DNA of 18,625 nt from assembly GCA_005772945.1 (NCBI GenBank), contig SXIE01000422.1, forward strand, positions 1 through 18,625, given 5' to 3'. The notes under the pieces are model-generated. The model worked only from the letters and a program-made list of their open reading frames with translations. It did no database searches and was not told the DNA's origin. Positions 7,101 to 14,484 of the stretch are shown one piece after another. Both the position numbers and the translations under genes were made by a program. Source of the stretch: Pseudomonadota bacterium (GTDB lineage Bacteria; Myxococcota; UBA9042; PHBI01). Every line of letters starts with the position of its first letter. Positions within the stretch are counted from its first letter, which is position 1.

Positions 7101-7598
7101 TCAACCGGCCCAGGTGATCTCCCAACGGCGCGTCGTGCCATCGACCGTGATGTCGATGGTGTCCCCGACCTGCTGCCCGCGCACGGCGCGCCCGATCGGC
7201 GAGGTCGGCGTCACGACCGAGAAGAAGCCGTCGCCGTCGGGCCCGGTGATCTCGATCCCGGCGCCCGTCGGCGCCAGGAAGAACGTGCGCCCGTCGCCGC
7301 TGTCCTCGTCCTCGATCTCGACGATGGCGCCGAGGTCGATGATGCCGCTCGGCGGCAGCGGTCCGGGCCGGAAGACCTCGAGCTCCGCGAGCATCATGCG
7401 CGCCTGCTCGGCTCGGCGCCGCTGCCCGCTGGCGAGCGCCGAATACTCGATCATCATGCGCGTGTCCTCGCGGCGCGTCTGGGCGTCCTCGCCGTCGCGG
7501 GCGGCCTCGACGGCCACGGCCATCTCGCGCTCGGCGACCCCGAGGTTCTCTCTCACGCGTGCAATCAGCTGGGCCACGATGGCCGACTTATCCATCAT
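7101..7598 (-). CDS. GreA/GreB-like transcription factor
   Basis: A 165-residue cytoplasmic protein, close in size to GreA (about 158). Residues 1-75 form a predicted antiparallel coiled coil with an acidic tip (Asp35-Gly-Glu-Asp38). In GreA this region enters the RNA polymerase secondary channel and positions Mg for transcript cleavage. Residues 85-160 match the FKBP-like C-terminal domain, with the hallmark Thr-Pro-x-Ser-Pro-Ile-Gly-Arg-Ala (from Thr130) and Gly-x-x-Val-Gly-Asp. The hairpin lacks the usual GreA Asp-Leu-Lys-Glu-Asn tip sequence, so it is a Gre paralog rather than the housekeeping factor. Two ATGs are adjacent at 7598 and 7595. There is no Shine-Dalgarno, and a -10-like box lies 6 nt upstream. 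It is divergent from the SGNH lipoprotein and convergent with the GH31 gene. Confidence 0.85.
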   Translation of the reverse strand: MMDKSAIVAQLIARVRENLGVAEREMAVAVEAARDGEDAQTRREDTRMMIEYSALASGQRRRAEQARMMLAELEVFRPGPLPPSGIIDLGAIVEIEDEDSGDGRTFFLAPTGAGIEITGPDGDGFFSVVTPTSPIGRAVRGQQVGDTIDITVDGTTRRWEITWAG

Positions 7599-9276: not shown

Positions 9277-9294
9277 CCCGACCCTACGGTCGGG
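9277..9294. terminator. hairpin between convergent genes
   Basis: CCCGACC (9277-9283) and GGTCGGG (9288-9294) form a perfect 7-bp stem with loop CTAC. The loop contains the TAG stop codon of the minus-strand M23 gene, and the hairpin starts 18 bp after the plus-strand stop at 9258. It could serve both directions, but no T-tract follows. Confidence 0.5.
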
Positions 9295-10609
9295 TGTCGG
9301 AATCCGGCGACGCCGGCGAATTCGGCGAAGTCGGTACCCCGGGCGCCTCCGGAGCCTTCACCGCGCGGCACGGCCGCGACACCTCGAGCCGCCAGCGCGC
9401 CTCGCGCAGCCACTTCTTCATCTCGGCGACCGTCCCGGCCGGCCACGCCTCGACCCAGACCGCGAGCGCCAGGTCGGCCTTGGGTTTCAGGTCGAGCGCC
9501 GCGACGCCGCCCTTGGTCCCGCTCTTCCTCGACGTGAAGGACGCCTTCCTTGCGGCGGCGCGCGTGCCCTTGGTGCCCGAGAACCAGACGGCCCCGCGCG
9601 CGTCGGCGATCTGGAGCCGTGGCGTCCAGTTGCCCTTGTCGAGCCGCGTCAGCCTGAACGTCCACGCGCCATCGAGGCGCGCCTCGCCCGCGGGCAGCGC
9701 GATCGCCGTCCGCAGGCCATTCGCGAAGTCGCCCTTGACAGTCCAGGCGCCGCACGTCGCGGGTCGCGACGGCAGACGCTCATCCGCGTCGCTGACCGTG
9801 CTCGTCGCGTCGTTCTTGGCCACGGCCTCGGCGTCGGCCCTGCGCTGCTTGGCCTCCTCGCGCAGGCGCCGCATGAGCTTGACGGCGGCCGCCGTGTACT
9901 CCGCGCGCACCGGGTTGGCGACGCGGTTGCCCCACTTGCACGTGACGTGGGTCGACCCGACCCCGAACAGCGCGCCGAGCTCGACCGCCTTGCCGTCGCG
10001 ATCCTCGAGCTCCATGTGAATGTGCGGCCCCGAGTCTTGCACGCCCGTGCCGCCGAGCAGCGCCACCTCGTCCCCGGGCGCGACGACGTCGCCGATCGCC
10101 AGGCGCGGGTGCACCGCTGCCAGGTGCATGTAGGTGTAGGTGTACCCCTTGAAAGGGCCGTCCAGGATGGCGAGCGTGATGTACCCGCCCGAGCGCCAGC
10201 GGCCATACCCGGCCGTGAAAAAGTGGACGCGCCCGTACTCGGGGATCTCGCGCGAGGCCGGCAGATCCGCGCTGCCACGGCGCGCGGTCGCGATCATGAG
10301 CGGCGCGCCGCAGCGCTCCGGGTCGCTCGCGGGCGTCGCGAACGCGAGGACGCGCGAACGGGCCATGGCGCGGACCGGGGTCCCGAGCCCGTGGTCCTTG
10401 CCGACCCCCCCGATGTCGAGCGCGCGGTGTCCGCCCCGCGCGCCGGCGCAGTCGGTCCAACCGCGAAAGAGATCATCGAGCGGGTAGGGCAGAACGAGCC
10501 CGTTCTCGAGGCGGAAGACGCCGTAGAGCTCGGCCGGGCCGAGCTTGTCGAGCGGGCTCGCCGTCACCAGCGACCACGCAGCGGACACCGATATCAGGAT
10601 GGAAAGCAC
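9284..10609 (-). CDS. M23/LytM-type metallopeptidase
   Basis: A 441-residue protein starting at GTG 10609, chosen for GAGGA at 10617-10621 (7-nt spacing) and for the signal-like hydrophobic N-terminus. The open frame continues upstream to 10798, but that part lies in intergenic repeat sequence. The zinc site of lysostaphin/LytM peptidases is complete: His61-x-x-x-Asp65 (His-Arg-Ala-Leu-Asp) and His196-Ile-His198, with another conserved His162 between them. The domain spans about 55-230, including Tyr-Thr-Tyr-Met-His-Leu and Gly-Asp-x-Val-Ala-Pro-Gly-Asp, both typical of M23. It should cut peptidoglycan cross-bridges or short peptides outside the cytoplasm. A charged helix (about 235-270) leads to a C-terminal domain of unknown fold, followed by a Pro/Ser-rich end. 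Large insertions between the two zinc motifs, longer than in minimal LytM, may shape substrate choice. Confidence 0.88.
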   Translation of the reverse strand: MLSILISVSAAWSLVTASPLDKLGPAELYGVFRLENGLVLPYPLDDLFRGWTDCAGARGGHRALDIGGVGKDHGLGTPVRAMARSRVLAFATPASDPERCGAPLMIATARRGSADLPASREIPEYGRVHFFTAGYGRWRSGGYITLAILDGPFKGYTYTYMHLAAVHPRLAIGDVVAPGDEVALLGGTGVQDSGPHIHMELEDRDGKAVELGALFGVGSTHVTCKWGNRVANPVRAEYTAAAVKLMRRLREEAKQRRADAEAVAKNDATSTVSDADERLPSRPATCGAWTVKGDFANGLRTAIALPAGEARLDGAWTFRLTRLDKGNWTPRLQIADARGAVWFSGTKGTRAAARKASFTSRKSGTKGGVAALDLKPKADLALAVWVEAWPAGTVAEMKKWLREARWRLEVSRPCRAVKAPEAPGVPTSPNSPASPDSDTRP

Positions 10610-10761
10610 GCGCGATTCCTCGGGATTCTCCGGTGCCAGGCGATGCGCGCATGGCCCGCGTGAGGGCGGAAGATACGCGAGTTGGGCCCGAACACGCGAG
10701 CAGTCGCTTCCGATTCCGTTCGGCGCACGAATCGCCACCACCGCCTCGCGCCTTGCCGCGA

Positions 10762-10805
10762 GGACTTCTTGCGCAAGAACGTCCACCTTCTTGCGCAAGA
10801 AGTCC
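10762..10805. repeat. 44-bp doubly palindromic element, copy 1
   Basis: Two 18-bp arms, GGACTTCTTGCGCAAGAA (10762-10779) and its exact reverse complement (10788-10805), flank an 8-bp spacer. Each arm itself contains the perfect 14-bp palindrome TTCTTGCGCAAGAA. It lies between the divergent M23 and propeller-lipoprotein genes, 47 bp before the GTG at 10852. A second copy with identical arms is at 13522-13565. It may be a dispersed REP/MITE-like element or a regulator binding site. Confidence 0.85.
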
Positions 10806-10817
10806 CCGCAACCGCGC

Positions 10818-10845
10818 TCGACATAGGCGCCCGATCTGCTAGGTT
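10818..10845 (+). promoter_or_regulatory. candidate promoter of the propeller lipoprotein
   Basis: TCGACA (10818-10823), a 16-bp spacer and TAGGTT (10840-10845, preceded by TGC) lie 6 nt before the GTG at 10852. No Shine-Dalgarno is visible, so a leaderless transcript is likely if the promoter is real. Confidence 0.4.
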
Positions 10846-10851
10846 CAGTCG

Positions 10852-12033
10852 GTGACTGGATTCGCCCCGTGCCTCTTCGCGATCGGATGCGTCGTCGTTG
10901 GCTGCCAGCCGGGCGGGGGCCTGCCCGCCACCGCGGACGAGGGGCCTGGGGTCGTCGAGGTCATCGCGGCCGAGTCGGCCGAGTCCCTTGAGACCGAGGC
11001 ACCGAGCGCCGACACGGGCGTGCCCGTGGGCGTCGAGCCCGAAGCCTCGGAGGTCGCCGCCGAGCCCGAAGCCTCGGAGGTCGCCGCCGAGACTGAAGCC
11101 TCCGAGGTCGCCGCCGAGACCGAAACCTCCGAGGTCGCTGCCGAGACCGAAACTTCCGAGGTCGCTGCCGAGACCGAGACCACGCTTGCGGAGGCGGAAG
11201 TCGGCCTCGACACCGCGCCTCCATCGGGCACCGCGTACGGCGCGCCGATCCCTCTGGGCGCCCTCAGCGGCGCCCCGGAGACCTCGGGCATCGTGGCCAG
11301 CCGCGACCACCCCGGGATCTTCTGGATACACAACGACTCGGGGAACCCGGCCGAGATCCTCGCGATCGACACGACCCCGCGCGTCGTCGCGACGATCGCG
11401 CTACCCGATGCGCAGAACCAGGACTGGGAGGCCATCGCGCTCATGCCGCGCGCGGGCGTCGACGCGCTCTATGTCGGCGACATCGGCGACAACGTCGCCC
11501 GCATCACCGAGGGTGTTGCCAGCGGTCGCCTCGGCACGATCCGCCTCTATCGGTTCGACGAGCCCGATCCCGCCTCGCAAGAGCCAGTGGCCGCGGTCGA
11601 GGCGCCCGAGACCATCGACTTGACCTATCCGGACGGGCCTCACGACTGCGAGAGCCTCTTCCTCGACCCGGCAACCGGCGACGCCTACGTCTTCTCGAAG
11701 GTCCGCGCGGGAGACGCGACGCTGTACGTCGCGCGCGCGCCGCTCGTCGGGCCAGGCCCGATCGCGCTGACGGCCGTTGCCACACTCGACATGGGTTGGA
11801 TCACCGCGGCCGATCTCGCCGCCGATGGCACGCGGCTCGCGGTCCGGAGCTACGGCGAGATCCGCGTCTTCCAGATCGCGGGCTCGATCGCCGACGCGCT
11901 GGCGACCACGCCCTGGAGGCCCTCGGCCGAGGGTTCCGCAGCCGAGGCGATCGCGTTTGGCGCGGGGAGCTACGACCTCTACACCATCGCCGAGGGCGAG
12001 GGCGCCACGCTGTTCCAGATCCCCTGGGAGTAG
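10852..12033 (+). CDS. lipoprotein with 9-residue repeat stalk and beta-propeller-like domain
   Basis: A 393-residue protein starting at GTG 10852. The signal peptide ends in Val-Val-Gly-Cys (Cys18; Cys13 is an alternative). Residues 64-108 are five near-perfect copies of a 9-residue Glu-Ala-Ser-Glu-Val-Ala-Ala-Glu-Thr repeat, a very acidic stalk. The globular part (about 125-393) has repeating beta-strand blocks with Ile-His-Asn-Asp-Ser-Gly, Asp-Trp-Glu-Ala-Ile-Ala and Val-Gly-Asp-Ile-Gly-Asp-Asn. I associate these with beta-propeller proteins of the SdiA-regulated/esterase-like kind; the Asp-rich loops may bind calcium. It is likely a surface-exposed binding or hydrolytic protein, with the substrate unknown. 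It stands alone: divergent from the M23 gene across the palindromic element and convergent with the calpain-like gene. Confidence 0.8.
   Translation: MTGFAPCLFAIGCVVVGCQPGGGLPATADEGPGVVEVIAAESAESLETEAPSADTGVPVGVEPEASEVAAEPEASEVAAETEASEVAAETETSEVAAETETSEVAAETETTLAEAEVGLDTAPPSGTAYGAPIPLGALSGAPETSGIVASRDHPGIFWIHNDSGNPAEILAIDTTPRVVATIALPDAQNQDWEAIALMPRAGVDALYVGDIGDNVARITEGVASGRLGTIRLYRFDEPDPASQEPVAAVEAPETIDLTYPDGPHDCESLFLDPATGDAYVFSKVRAGDATLYVARAPLVGPGPIALTAVATLDMGWITAADLAADGTRLAVRSYGEIRVFQIAGSIADALATTPWRPSAEGSAAEAIAFGAGSYDLYTIAEGEGATLFQIPWE
11041..11175 (+). repeat. 27-bp tandem repeat, five copies (protein stalk)
   Basis: Five consecutive 27-bp units encode the acidic 9-residue repeat of the lipoprotein. 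Copies differ mostly at one or a few bases, with a gradient of changes along the array (GCC to ACC/ACT, GCC to GCT), as expected after recent duplication. Confidence 0.9.
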
Positions 12034-12135: not shown

Positions 12136-13017
12136 TCAGGAAGCGGCGCCCGGTAGATAGCCGACATGCACGGTGTCGAATTGCTTGACGAACGCCTTGA
12201 ACGGCGTTGGCGGATCCGGAGCGCGATGGTGTGGGTTCTTCTTGACCACGGTGCCGGACTTCCAGTCCTTGCCGGTCAGGCTCAAGACAGAGAACGCGTG
12301 ACGCTGACCTTCGCCGTAGGGGCAATCGGCAACGACAGGTCGGCCCTGCTTGAGCCACGTCGTGATGTTGGCCCATGTCTCCGCGGCCTTCGCGTCATCG
12401 CCAGAAATGCTGGCTTGCTCCGCCTTACGACCGGTGAGCGCCCGGAAAACGGAGTCCGCGCCACCGCCCTCGATGCCCGCATAGTCCTTGCCGGCCCAAG
12501 CGGCATACGCCTTTTCGATCAGCATCGGCCAGATCTCGACTTCGCGCTCGTTCGAGTCGGCCCCTGGCTGCGCATAGTTCGCTGTCGGCTGCGGGAGCTG
12601 CCGGGCCGCTTTCGGGGTCGGCGGGTCCTCGGCCTTCTGGCGCCACGCGACCGCGAATTGGAAATCGGGGGTGACGCTGACCCACTCGACCTTTCCATCC
12701 GTCCCGAAAAAGCGCACCGAGTAACGCTCGCTCTTGCCGTGCGGGGTGATCATCGCCATGACTTGATCCGGCTTCTTGGCAGCCAAGGACGTCAGCGCCG
12801 CCATCAGATAACAGTCGCCGATTCTCCCTTGTTGGACGTCCTGGACCGAGACCCCCTTGATGAAGGGTCGACCAGCCGTTGGCCGTCGGGCCTCGACCTC
12901 GTACGTCGCGTCGGGTATTGCGGCGGGCTCCTGCGAGGACGGCTTTTTCGGTGCGGGCGTGGCTTGCCCCTTCATCTGGACGAGGGCCTCGGGGCCTGCA
13001 AAGGCGCCATGGATCAC
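12136..13017 (-). CDS. calpain-like (C2) cysteine protease
   Basis: A 293-residue protein with a full calpain-type active site: Gln63-Gly-x-x-Gly-Asp-Cys69 (Cys nucleophile after the oxyanion Gln), His240 in Arg-His-Ala-Phe-Ser-Val, and Asn261 in Lys-Asn-Pro. Between them, Ile-Trp-Pro-Met-Leu-Ile-Glu-Lys-Ala-Tyr (from residue 162) and Gly-Gly-Gly-Ala-Asp-Ser ... Leu-Thr-Gly match the conserved calpain core. No signal peptide and no calcium-binding C2-like domain are seen. The GTG start at 13017 overlaps the upstream stop (GTGA) and has no Shine-Dalgarno, so it depends on translational coupling or frameshifting from the small ORF before it. Its own N-terminus (Ala-Leu-Val-Gln-Met-Lys-Gly) resembles leader sequences of secreted effectors. 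It could be an exported toxin or a regulatory protease. Confidence 0.87.
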   Translation of the reverse strand: MIHGAFAGPEALVQMKGQATPAPKKPSSQEPAAIPDATYEVEARRPTAGRPFIKGVSVQDVQQGRIGDCYLMAALTSLAAKKPDQVMAMITPHGKSERYSVRFFGTDGKVEWVSVTPDFQFAVAWRQKAEDPPTPKAARQLPQPTANYAQPGADSNEREVEIWPMLIEKAYAAWAGKDYAGIEGGGADSVFRALTGRKAEQASISGDDAKAAETWANITTWLKQGRPVVADCPYGEGQRHAFSVLSLTGKDWKSGTVVKKNPHHRAPDPPTPFKAFVKQFDTVHVGYLPGAAS

Positions 13018-13217
13018 GTCGAGGTGCGCGAGGCTAGGGCCCGCTGGGCGGCGGCTTTCTGCTGCACGGGGGTGAGCGCCCTCATCTGGGTCGCGTAGTC
13101 CTTGCCGCGCAGCGCCGCCTTGCGCTGGACGCGACTCGGTGACGACGTCGGCGACCGCGCCGGCTGGCTCGTGGGGCTCGTCTGGGACTCGGCTCCGGGG
13201 ATCGTCTCGAGGGCCAT
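13014..13217 (-). CDS. 67-residue leader ORF coupled to the calpain-like protease
   Basis: The ATG at 13217 is preceded by GGAG (13227-13224) with a 6-nt gap. A longer frame from 13313 lacks such a site. The product is a Ser/Thr/Pro-rich segment followed by Val-Gln-Arg-Lys-Ala-Ala-Leu-Arg-Gly-Lys-Asp-Tyr-Ala ... Leu-Thr-Pro-Val-Gln. It resembles the N-terminal disordered leaders found on proteins associated with extracellular contractile injection systems, where Val-Gln-Arg-Lys and Leu-x-Pro-Val-Gln motifs recur. Its TGA stop overlaps the GTG of the protease. Either it is a separate coupled peptide or the two frames were once one gene split by a frameshift. The protease frame begins with a similar Val-Gln-Met-Lys-Gly motif, which favours the second view. 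The link to injection systems is inference. Confidence 0.62.
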   Translation of the reverse strand: MALETIPGAESQTSPTSQPARSPTSSPSRVQRKAALRGKDYATQMRALTPVQQKAAAQRALASRTST

Positions 13218-13570
13218 GCGTGACTCCGTCCGCACGTGGAGGTCGGCGCGCGCCGACGGTTGCGCGACGAAGCCTCCAAGCGTCCTAGGACCCGACGTCG
13301 ACCACCCTAGCACCGTTCGAATCGGGCTCCGCGTAAGCGCCTCGGCCCGCGCTGGAATTGAGCACTTCTTCTCTCTGCGCCGACGACGATCATCGAACCG
13401 CCAGGTGCCGGGAGAGCTTGTTCAGGGGTTTGCCCGGTAGGGGCACCGGTTCGCGCGGTATGCGGACGACCGCAGATCTGGACGCTCGGCGGAGCCGGCC
13501 CCGCCATCGCGGCCGACACGAGGACTTCTTGCGCAAGAAGTCCCACCTTCTTGCGCAAGAAGTCCCCGCG
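13218..13570. other. intergenic region with no convincing gene
   Basis: These 353 bp separate two minus-strand genes. They contain the leader region of the calpain unit, a TAGGGT box (13309-13304, minus strand) without a recognisable -35, the palindromes TCCTAGGA and GACGTC around 13283-13300, and the 44-bp double palindrome at 13522-13565. Frames that cross the region are Arg-rich or start inside the palindrome and are not believable proteins. Confidence 0.7.
13522..13565. repeat. 44-bp doubly palindromic element, copy 2
   Basis: The same 18-bp inverted arms as copy 1 (13522-13539 and 13548-13565) flank the spacer GTCCCACC. In this copy the first half also forms a perfect 22-bp palindrome (13522-13543). 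It begins 5 bp after the stop codon of the minus-strand gene at 13571, where the transcript could fold into one 18-bp stem or two smaller hairpins and help terminate transcription. No T-tract follows. Confidence 0.88.
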
Positions 13571-14362
13571 TCAACGCGCTCTGGGCAGCGCCTTCGCCAA
13601 GACCTTCGCCAGCGCGCCGAGCTTGGCCAAGGGGACGCGGATCTTCACGTCGGCGCCGCGCTTGGCGCCCATCGCCACAAGCGCGATCTCGGCGTCGGCC
13701 AGACCGGGCGCCGCGCGGAGCTCGGCTTCGAGCATCACCAGCAGCTCCTCTTCTTCCGCGGTCGTCGTGCGCCCGTTCTTGCGGTCGCCGCGCGCCCGTC
13801 GGATCGCCATGGCCGCTTCGCGGATCTCGCGCGTCGAGGCCTTGGCGACGCGCAGGGTCTCGCCCGAGGGCAGCTTCAGGCGCGCGTTCTGCAGATCGGC
13901 GGGCGTGTCGTCCTCGGGCGTCGCGTCGGCGAGATCGAGCAGCGCTGCGGCCCGCTCCTGACCGACCGCGATGAGCAGCGGCGCATCGACGCGCTCGGTC
14001 AGCGCGAGCAGCTGAGTCGCCTTGCTCAGCGACATGTCGAGATCGCGCTCGCACACCTCGGCGAAAGAGCCGCGCCCCAGCGCCTTGAACACGTCGTCCG
14101 TGCGCAGGATCCGGAGCGCGTCTGCAACCTCGAGGAAGTTCGAGGCCATGTCGCGTCGGCGCGCCTGGACCAGCGCGATCGCCCCAAGGCCCTCGGCGCG
14201 ATGGCGGCGGACGGCCGCGTCGTGGGCGGCCTTGGCGTTCTTGGCGAGGGCCGGCGGCAGCGCGCGCGCGGGCTTCCGGGCGCCTGCCGCAGGCGCTGCG
14301 CCAGTCTTGGCAGTCTGGGGAATTTTGGCAGTCTTGGCAGTCGGGGCGGTGCGAGCCTTCAT
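13571..14362 (-). CDS. uncharacterised protein with basic tail and HTH-like core
   Basis: A 263-residue cytoplasmic protein of unknown family. Residues 1-55 are rich in Lys, Ala, Pro and Thr, like a histone-H1 type nucleic-acid binding tail, and are partly encoded by short repeats. Residues about 75-145 are helical: Phe-Ala-Glu-Val-Cys-Glu ... Met-Ser-Leu-Ser-Lys-Ala-Thr-Gln-Leu-Leu has the spacing of a ParB/KorB-like helix-turn-helix, followed by an Ala/Leu-rich helix. Residues 195-215 are a Glu-rich helix. The C-terminus (Ala-Asp-Val-Lys-Ile-Arg-Val-Pro-Leu-Ala-Lys-Leu) looks like a small beta-alpha unit. DNA binding is an inference from charge and helix pattern. It is divergent from the metal efflux operon and could be its regulator, but it does not look like MerR, ArsR or a two-component protein. 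The palindromic element follows its stop codon. Confidence 0.72.
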   Translation of the reverse strand: MKARTAPTAKTAKIPQTAKTGAAPAAGARKPARALPPALAKNAKAAHDAAVRRHRAEGLGAIALVQARRRDMASNFLEVADALRILRTDDVFKALGRGSFAEVCERDLDMSLSKATQLLALTERVDAPLLIAVGQERAAALLDLADATPEDDTPADLQNARLKLPSGETLRVAKASTREIREAAMAIRRARGDRKNGRTTTAEEEELLVMLEAELRAAPGLADAEIALVAMGAKRGADVKIRVPLAKLGALAKVLAKALPRAR

Positions 14363-14455
14363 CCCGCCATTTTCGGCGGAGTGCGCCGTTTCGTCCAGAC
14401 CACGTCGACGCCGCCTACGCCGCCGGGCATGGGATCACCCAGACGCGCGCCATTC

Positions 14456-14484
14456 TTGCGCGCGAAACGCCATACTGATAACGT
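14456..14484 (+). promoter_or_regulatory. weak candidate promoter of the efflux operon
   Basis: TTGCGC (14456-14461), a 17-bp spacer and TAACGT (14479-14484) lie 8 nt before the ATG at 14493. Both boxes match only half of the sigma-70 consensus. No Shine-Dalgarno precedes the ATG. Confidence 0.25.

Follow-up and report, generated by a model that had tools for sequence, protein, structure and literature searches.

The 18,625-nt stretch of DNA analysed here, to which we refer as the window, carries a 44-nt element twice, at positions 10762-10805 and 13522-13565. The two copies are 2,760 bp apart, have the same orientation, and lie among the following genes and features:

10762..10805, no strand: copy 1, a tandem pair of palindromes with units at 10766-10779 and 10787-10802; the second site, adjoining the probable divergent starts of two genes
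13522..13565, no strand: copy 2, a tandem pair made up of a perfect 22-bp palindrome (13522-13543) and a 16-bp palindrome (13547-13562); 5 nt past the stop codon (TGA) of P0001
13571..14362, minus strand: gene of P0001 (263 aa), a member of an unnamed family with a predicted ParB/Noc-like DNA-binding domain at about residues 51-188, in which no CTPase domain was found; the protein proposed to bind both copies
14453..14466, plus strand: degenerate single palindrome TTCTTGCGCGCGAA with two mismatches, lying upstream of the P0001 start codon by about 90 nt
9284..10798, minus strand: M23-peptidase ORF flanking copy 1, which its longest reading overlaps
10852..12033, plus strand: lipoprotein-like gene flanking copy 1 opposite the M23 ORF, at a distance of 46 nt; candidate target
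13014..13313, minus strand: the ORF that follows copy 2 on the same strand as P0001; at its end it overlaps with the beginning of a calpain-type protease ORF (12136-13017)

A preliminary description of this DNA had reported a double palindrome that occurs twice, with exact 18-bp arms and differing 8-nt spacers, and all of this is confirmed. The arms are exact reverse complements within each copy and identical between copies, the spacers (CGTCCACC in copy 1 and GTCCCACC in copy 2) differ at 3 of 8 positions, and the match between copies reaches 51 nt at 94%. Because each arm itself holds a palindrome, the exact inverted arms amount to a tandem direct repeat of that palindrome with a 22-bp period, centre to centre, which is the more informative description. 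The palindrome TTCTTGCGCAAGAA has four exact matches in the window and one further site with two mismatches; shuffled sequences are expected to contain 0.34 matches at up to three mismatches, and none of 200 shuffles reached five. When the window is ranked for tandem palindromes with a period of 20-24, the two copies take the first and second place (scores 24.0 and 22.5, the next being 18.1). The earlier suggestion that the arrangement is more than chance holds. Copy 2, which has the score of 24.0 and the centre of its first unit 16 nt after the P0001 stop, was matched by none of 100 shuffles. The left flanks of the two copies, and likewise the right flanks, show marginal extra similarity (3 of 300 shuffles in either case). 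The degenerate palindrome at 14453-14466, the only other near-match in the window, may be a weak site or a product of chance.

As to their contexts, copy 2 does lie just after a stop codon, as had been described, while the placement of copy 1 between divergent genes depends on where the M23 ORF begins. The coding signal of this ORF, as judged from codon composition, sets in about 180 nt inside the longest reading. Translation thus probably begins near 10620, and copy 1 would then lie in an intergenic region between divergent genes. The best named relative of the lipoprotein-like protein comes from a Sandaracinaceae MAG (64%), for which reason the DNA probably stems from a relative of this myxobacterial family. 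The lipoprotein-like gene of the window contains a 27-nt tandem repeat at 11026-11187, encoding a Glu/Ala-rich stretch. The ORF at 12136-13017 encodes a calpain-type cysteine protease (Pfam Peptidase_C2, E 4.1e-15), with the small overlapping ORF upstream of it. Further away, the ORF at 7101-7598 carries a GreA/GreB C-terminal domain (Pfam, E 2.9e-09).

Searches with the element itself returned little. The exact double palindrome had no matches in genome_contigs and viral_contigs, and the fixed-gap double pattern, allowing up to three mismatches, was found in none of 317 class genomes. Plasmid and phage blastn gave two and one records, respectively, in all of which the match was partial (E 0.04-0.5) and spanned less than 80% of the query. 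The single-unit pattern at up to three mismatches occurred at 5-9 places in each of four genomes, which is below the reversed-pattern control (13-48). No match to Rfam at gathering score was found in the whole window, and there was no useful synteny among the first homolog loci fetched. The preliminary description had named a lack of conservation in relatives as what would speak against its reading; such a lack is indeed found for the sequence, but not for the tandem architecture.

Tandem palindromes beside genes of the P0001 family

No convincing family was found for P0001 in Pfam or NCBIfam. Its predicted structure begins with 36 unstructured residues, followed by one long helix that leads into a helical bundle; a second prediction gave a similar picture. 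In a comparison spanning the fold families listed by VIA-align, two predicted structures of the family resemble ParB/Noc DNA-binding domains, at about residues 51-188 in P0001, and a ParB/Noc-type helix-turn-helix domain is thus predicted by computation. There was no ParB Pfam match in 10 family members at E values up to 1; since the defining CTPase domain was looked for and not found, we do not file the family as ParB. Searches of a viral structure library gave no match at E <= 0.001 (best 0.011), and PADLOC and PHROGs gave nothing named that fits. A PHROG of unknown function, phrog_6963, matches 7 of 15 family members (best E 5.1e-06), a hint of phage relatives. When 122 neighbours were grouped by similarity alone, no recurrent family that could include a ParA-type partner emerged (largest cluster 4/122).

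A first scan for hairpins in 110 loci plus the window (1.39 Mb) found a tandem palindrome of the same layout and different sequence beside two homologs of P0001 (L085, L088), and other tandem palindromes upstream of three more (L083, L084, L089); none was found at homologs L086 and L090. These observations led to the hypothesis that the palindromes are linked to the gene, which was then tested in a larger survey. A family profile matches 141 of the 317 class genomes, ten of which have 6-8 matches (at most 8 candidates scored in each), and 55 of 377 genomes in a phylum-wide sample that includes class members. For the survey we took 80 of the 81 best-ranked of many matches, each together with flanks of up to 3 kb, leaving out one at a contig edge (G147:C201). 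These homologs come from 31 genomes and include orthologs, and hence they are not independent; the array threshold (score 18.5) and the distance windows were set after the first array results were known.

With this threshold, 52 of the 80 homologs, or 53 of 81 when the window is included, have an array of candidate palindromic targets of about 16 bp at the start or stop of the gene, while 28 of the 81 loci have none. At least one array is found in 26 of the 31 genomes. The top-scoring tandem palindrome (period 20-24) of the whole locus sits at the ends of the family gene in 53 of the 81 loci, where 5.5 are expected. When flanks were shuffled (at most 1 of 100 as good), 26 of 81 loci had an array upstream, 26 downstream, and 51 on at least one side. 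Arrays were far rarer in the controls, where they were seen at 5 of 312 positions drawn at random from these loci (mostly coding DNA), at 0 of 20 loci of an unrelated lipoprotein gene (with approximate gene ends), and at the ends of 3 of 115 neighbouring ORFs, two of the three being in loci with the family's own or a second array nearby (L154, L189). We regard the linkage of gene and array as shown by computation. The word 'dispersed' used in the preliminary description holds with respect to relatives, and the idea of a regulatory site holds as well; the neighbouring P0001 gene had been missed.

The arrays are uniform in period and variable in position. The period is 22 in 43 of them, 21 in eight, 23 in one and 24 in one, and some arrays have 3-5 units. 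In 28 of the 53 cases the array follows the stop codon, and in 25 it precedes the start. The 24 downstream arrays that pass the shuffle test have their first 16-bp unit beginning 1-24 nt past the stop codon. Among the 28 arrays after a stop codon, the gene that comes next was called in 24 cases, being convergent in 13 and codirectional in 11. Beside L088, 14 nt separate the end of the array from the start codon, a position that would suit an autorepressor. Upstream of another family gene (L085, G001:C197) there are two arrays of slightly different palindromes, one located past the stop of the upstream gene, with five complete units plus part of a sixth, and one with three units adjoining the start. 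At L163 (G147:C295) and L166 (G149:C607) a near-identical array stands on both sides of the family gene, in the same orientation; these are just below 18.5 and outside the 53. At the shuffle threshold, only L163 counts as two-sided (1 of 81 loci; at most 1/100 on each side), L166 being weaker (5 and 30 of 100). Several family genes are near contig ends in draft genomes, which would fit with their being repeated.

The palindromes themselves differ from one family member to the next, the 53 arrays reducing to 45 distinct 9-nt half-site consensuses. Both members share the half-site in eight pairs, of which five are cross-genome pairs at 71-95% protein identity (orthologs by that measure), one is a cross-genome pair at 47%, and two are paralogs within one genome (89% in G195 and 68% in G146); over all 1378 pairs the median protein identity is 30%. 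The sites are thus private as a tendency, not as a rule. Distance between proteins correlates with distance between half-sites (Mantel r=0.499, 0/2000 permutations), and still does so in a thinned set of 37 proteins that are less than 55% identical (r=0.417, 0/2000). Once overall protein distance is removed, the alignment column that best tracks the site is that of residue 117 of P0001 (0/2000 permutations on the maximum over 202 columns), which is located in a predicted helix (112-124) of the predicted DNA-binding domain; a second column, residue 178, reaches 2/2000, and a third 71/2000. Because the permutation leaves some ancestry in, this covariation argues strongly, but not finally, for coevolution of protein and site.

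Dispersed copies and competing explanations

Searches for exact patterns of a given tandem palindrome found it at a few places per genome: two in G001, three in G309 (14.6 Mb), two in G155, four in G157, one in G158 and four in G159; there were none in 16 other genomes searched. One place is at or near a family gene in G001, G309, G157 and G159, and the remaining places are mostly intergenic by crude ORF calls, several of them directly at stop codons. Low-copy dispersal in other genomes is hence observed, and copy 1 is a low-copy second site of the kind seen in these relatives. One such site is present at the same position in two species (L237, L238), between the stops of convergent genes. In three dispersed copies in G159, the match to the master gene runs from its 3' end across the array, over 119 nt (96%), 66 nt (97%) and 66 nt (92%), with 76, 23 and 23 nt of the match on the gene side, and one copy in G157 (L236) keeps about 21 nt of the 3' end of the gene. 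At L240 (G159:C91), L239 and L241 the 3' end of a family gene is followed by the array, and the rest of the gene was not found there. The gene-side flank is similar to that of the master (at most 1/60 shuffles) in seven of nine dispersed copies of the G155-G159 group (L233, L236-L241); since the matches of L233, L237 and L238 are long gapped alignments, only four of the seven are clear. No gene-side similarity was seen at L234 and L235 (18 and 6 of 60 shuffles), and the far-side flank is similar in three of the nine (L235, L239, L241). In G309, the two copies lack such gene-side similarity (38 and 42 of 60 shuffles), and in G001 a similar flank (0/60) may be just a further partial unit.

These copies are what a mobile or REP-like element might leave, in which gene and array spread as a unit or by means of another enzyme, the other copies are truncated, and P0001 recognises the site. 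The stretches of the gene's 3' end in G159 and G157, the similar gene-side flanks, and the arrays on both sides of the gene in L163 and, more weakly, L166 speak for it, and species-specific private palindromes that coevolve with a protein parallel RAYT-REP systems (PMC2817692). However, the copies are few, L234, L235 and the G309 copies do not extend on the gene side, the far side is also similar in L235, L239 and L241, the site shared by L237 and L238 indicates that some copies are old, and in the window itself the extension of the flanks is marginal and two-sided. Nor is there a signature of a nuclease or transposase. The REP/RAYT version of this explanation, which the preliminary description had named as one possibility together with a check for a RAYT-type transposase, is not supported, as transposase signature, copy number and two-sided layout all disagree: the HUH pattern occurs in 1 of 53 partner proteins, no His column is conserved above 0.36 (one Tyr column is at 0.81), 1-4 places per genome were counted, and arrays are two-sided at 1 of 81 loci. 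In its general form, we consider a mobile element possible but unlikely. If one instead supposes an RNA hairpin that ends or protects transcripts, whether as a terminator or by stabilising 3' ends, in which case P0001 might be an autoregulator that binds RNA, the stability of the predicted folds is in its favour. On the minus strand these reach -46.7 and -54.9 kcal/mol (z -8.9 and -9.9), and on the plus strand they are weaker in energy (-37.7 and -42.3, z -9.6 and -9.0); the flanks outside the arms still pair (10748-10820 and 13505-13580), and the plus-strand mismatches of this outer stem are C-A, which would be G-U pairs in a minus-strand RNA, in both copies. The 28 arrays after a stop codon, and L237 and L238 between convergent stops, would fit as well. 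Yet the units are themselves palindromic and some arrays have 3-5 of them, neither of which a single hairpin needs, 25 of the 53 arrays precede the gene, a DNA-binding fold is predicted for the protein, the pairing of outer flanks across the family is only modestly above the pairing within units, and neither copy has a match in Rfam. The terminator version proposed earlier is weak also in that no GC-rich stem with a T-run, as in an intrinsic terminator, was called at either copy. On balance, we deem an RNA function improbable.

Comparably improbable is a parS-like centromere site, served by a solitary ParB-like protein for local DNA organisation and not for control of transcription. The predicted fold, the size of the palindrome and the array beside the gene on either side are in line with it, and in plasmid partition loci, too, the array is found beside the gene on either side. 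Against it are the CTPase domain that was not found, the lack of a recurrent ParA candidate among the grouped neighbours, and the several paralogs per genome with different sites. That the palindromes merely happen to lie beside P0001 we regard as highly improbable: the exact sequence was found nowhere else in the searched contigs and 317 class genomes, which would suit a coincidence, but the frequency of arrays in 53 of 81 loci against 5/312 and 3/115 in the controls is difficult to reconcile with it.

A proposed binding site and its relation to known systems

We consider it likely that the double palindrome is the binding site of P0001, a ParB/Noc-like, CTPase-less protein with coevolving tandem sites, which probably controls its own gene and a few other loci. 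Each copy would constitute two adjacent binding sites for P0001, with palindromes 22 bp, or about two helical turns, apart. Dimers would bind each palindrome, and pairs of dimers the array; owing to the period, both units would face much the same side of the helix. Family members would have diverged to different palindromes, each of which stays at the edge of its gene, either ahead of the start or past the stop codon. Through these sites the protein would probably control its own expression and the few other loci that bear a copy, and by way of copy 1 P0001 would control the M23-peptidase and lipoprotein genes. It should be noted that 28 of the 53 arrays follow a stop codon, which is at odds with a simple promoter operator. 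From the sequences and predicted structures we infer that P0001 binds both sites, does so as dimers, and thereby affects transcription.

More tentatively, these findings could point to a new type of unit, in which a ParB/Noc-like protein lacking the CTPase and the tandem palindrome that belongs to it multiply in myxobacterial genomes as largely orthogonal pairs, with specificity shifting after duplication and truncated gene-plus-array copies left behind, often at gene ends. If so, one genome would run many insulated protein-site circuits. In any case, tens of naturally matched candidate protein-DNA pairs stand side by side in the genome, such that the DNA preference could be guessed without an experiment, and one survey gave 53 candidate pairs with 45 half-sites, compared to the two sites (parS and NBS) studied in PMC7383237. 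Binders that are orthogonal and recognise short sites would be of use as tools, too. In annotation, such pairs would explain some of the species-specific intergenic palindromes in Polyangia, and would provide a likely function for a family for which no Pfam or NCBIfam model was found. Within the terms searched, no description of a family with linked tandem palindromes was found in titles and abstract openings of the open-access literature.

Autoregulators of the TetR kind have a paralog-specific palindromic operator that adjoins the regulator gene. The P0001 family is similar in having a paralog-specific palindromic site next to the gene, but differs in its fold and in the tandem of 21-22-bp spacing that follows the stop codon in 28 of 53 cases. 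RAYT transposases are defined by an HUH and tyrosine motif, and the REPs that go with them carry a GTAG or GGAG tetranucleotide at the foot of the hairpin. Like RAYT-REP systems (PMC2817692), the P0001 family combines a gene with private palindromes that coevolve with the protein, and has dispersed copies. Unlike them, it lacks the HUH transposase signature, it shows 1-4 places in each of six other genomes where REPs usually number more than 100 per genome (PMC2817692), and its palindromes are direct repeats that usually stand on a single side of the gene, in contrast to two inverted REPs.

The closest resemblance in predicted fold is to ParB and Noc, whose targets parS and NBS are 16-bp palindromes and have been used to study how specificity diversifies (PMC7383237). 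As in these proteins, the predicted domain of P0001 (about residues 51-188) goes along with palindromic sites of about 16 bp, and preference appears to be tied to few residues of the DNA-binding domain. In contrast to ParB and Noc, no CTPase domain or recurrent neighbour was found for the P0001 family, the sites are tandem and beside the gene, and they differ between several paralogs per genome. KorB of plasmid RK2 is a CTPase sliding clamp that works with KorA (PMC11790492), whereas the P0001 family shows no CTPase domain. What the two would have in common is the use of a ParB-related protein as a repressor.
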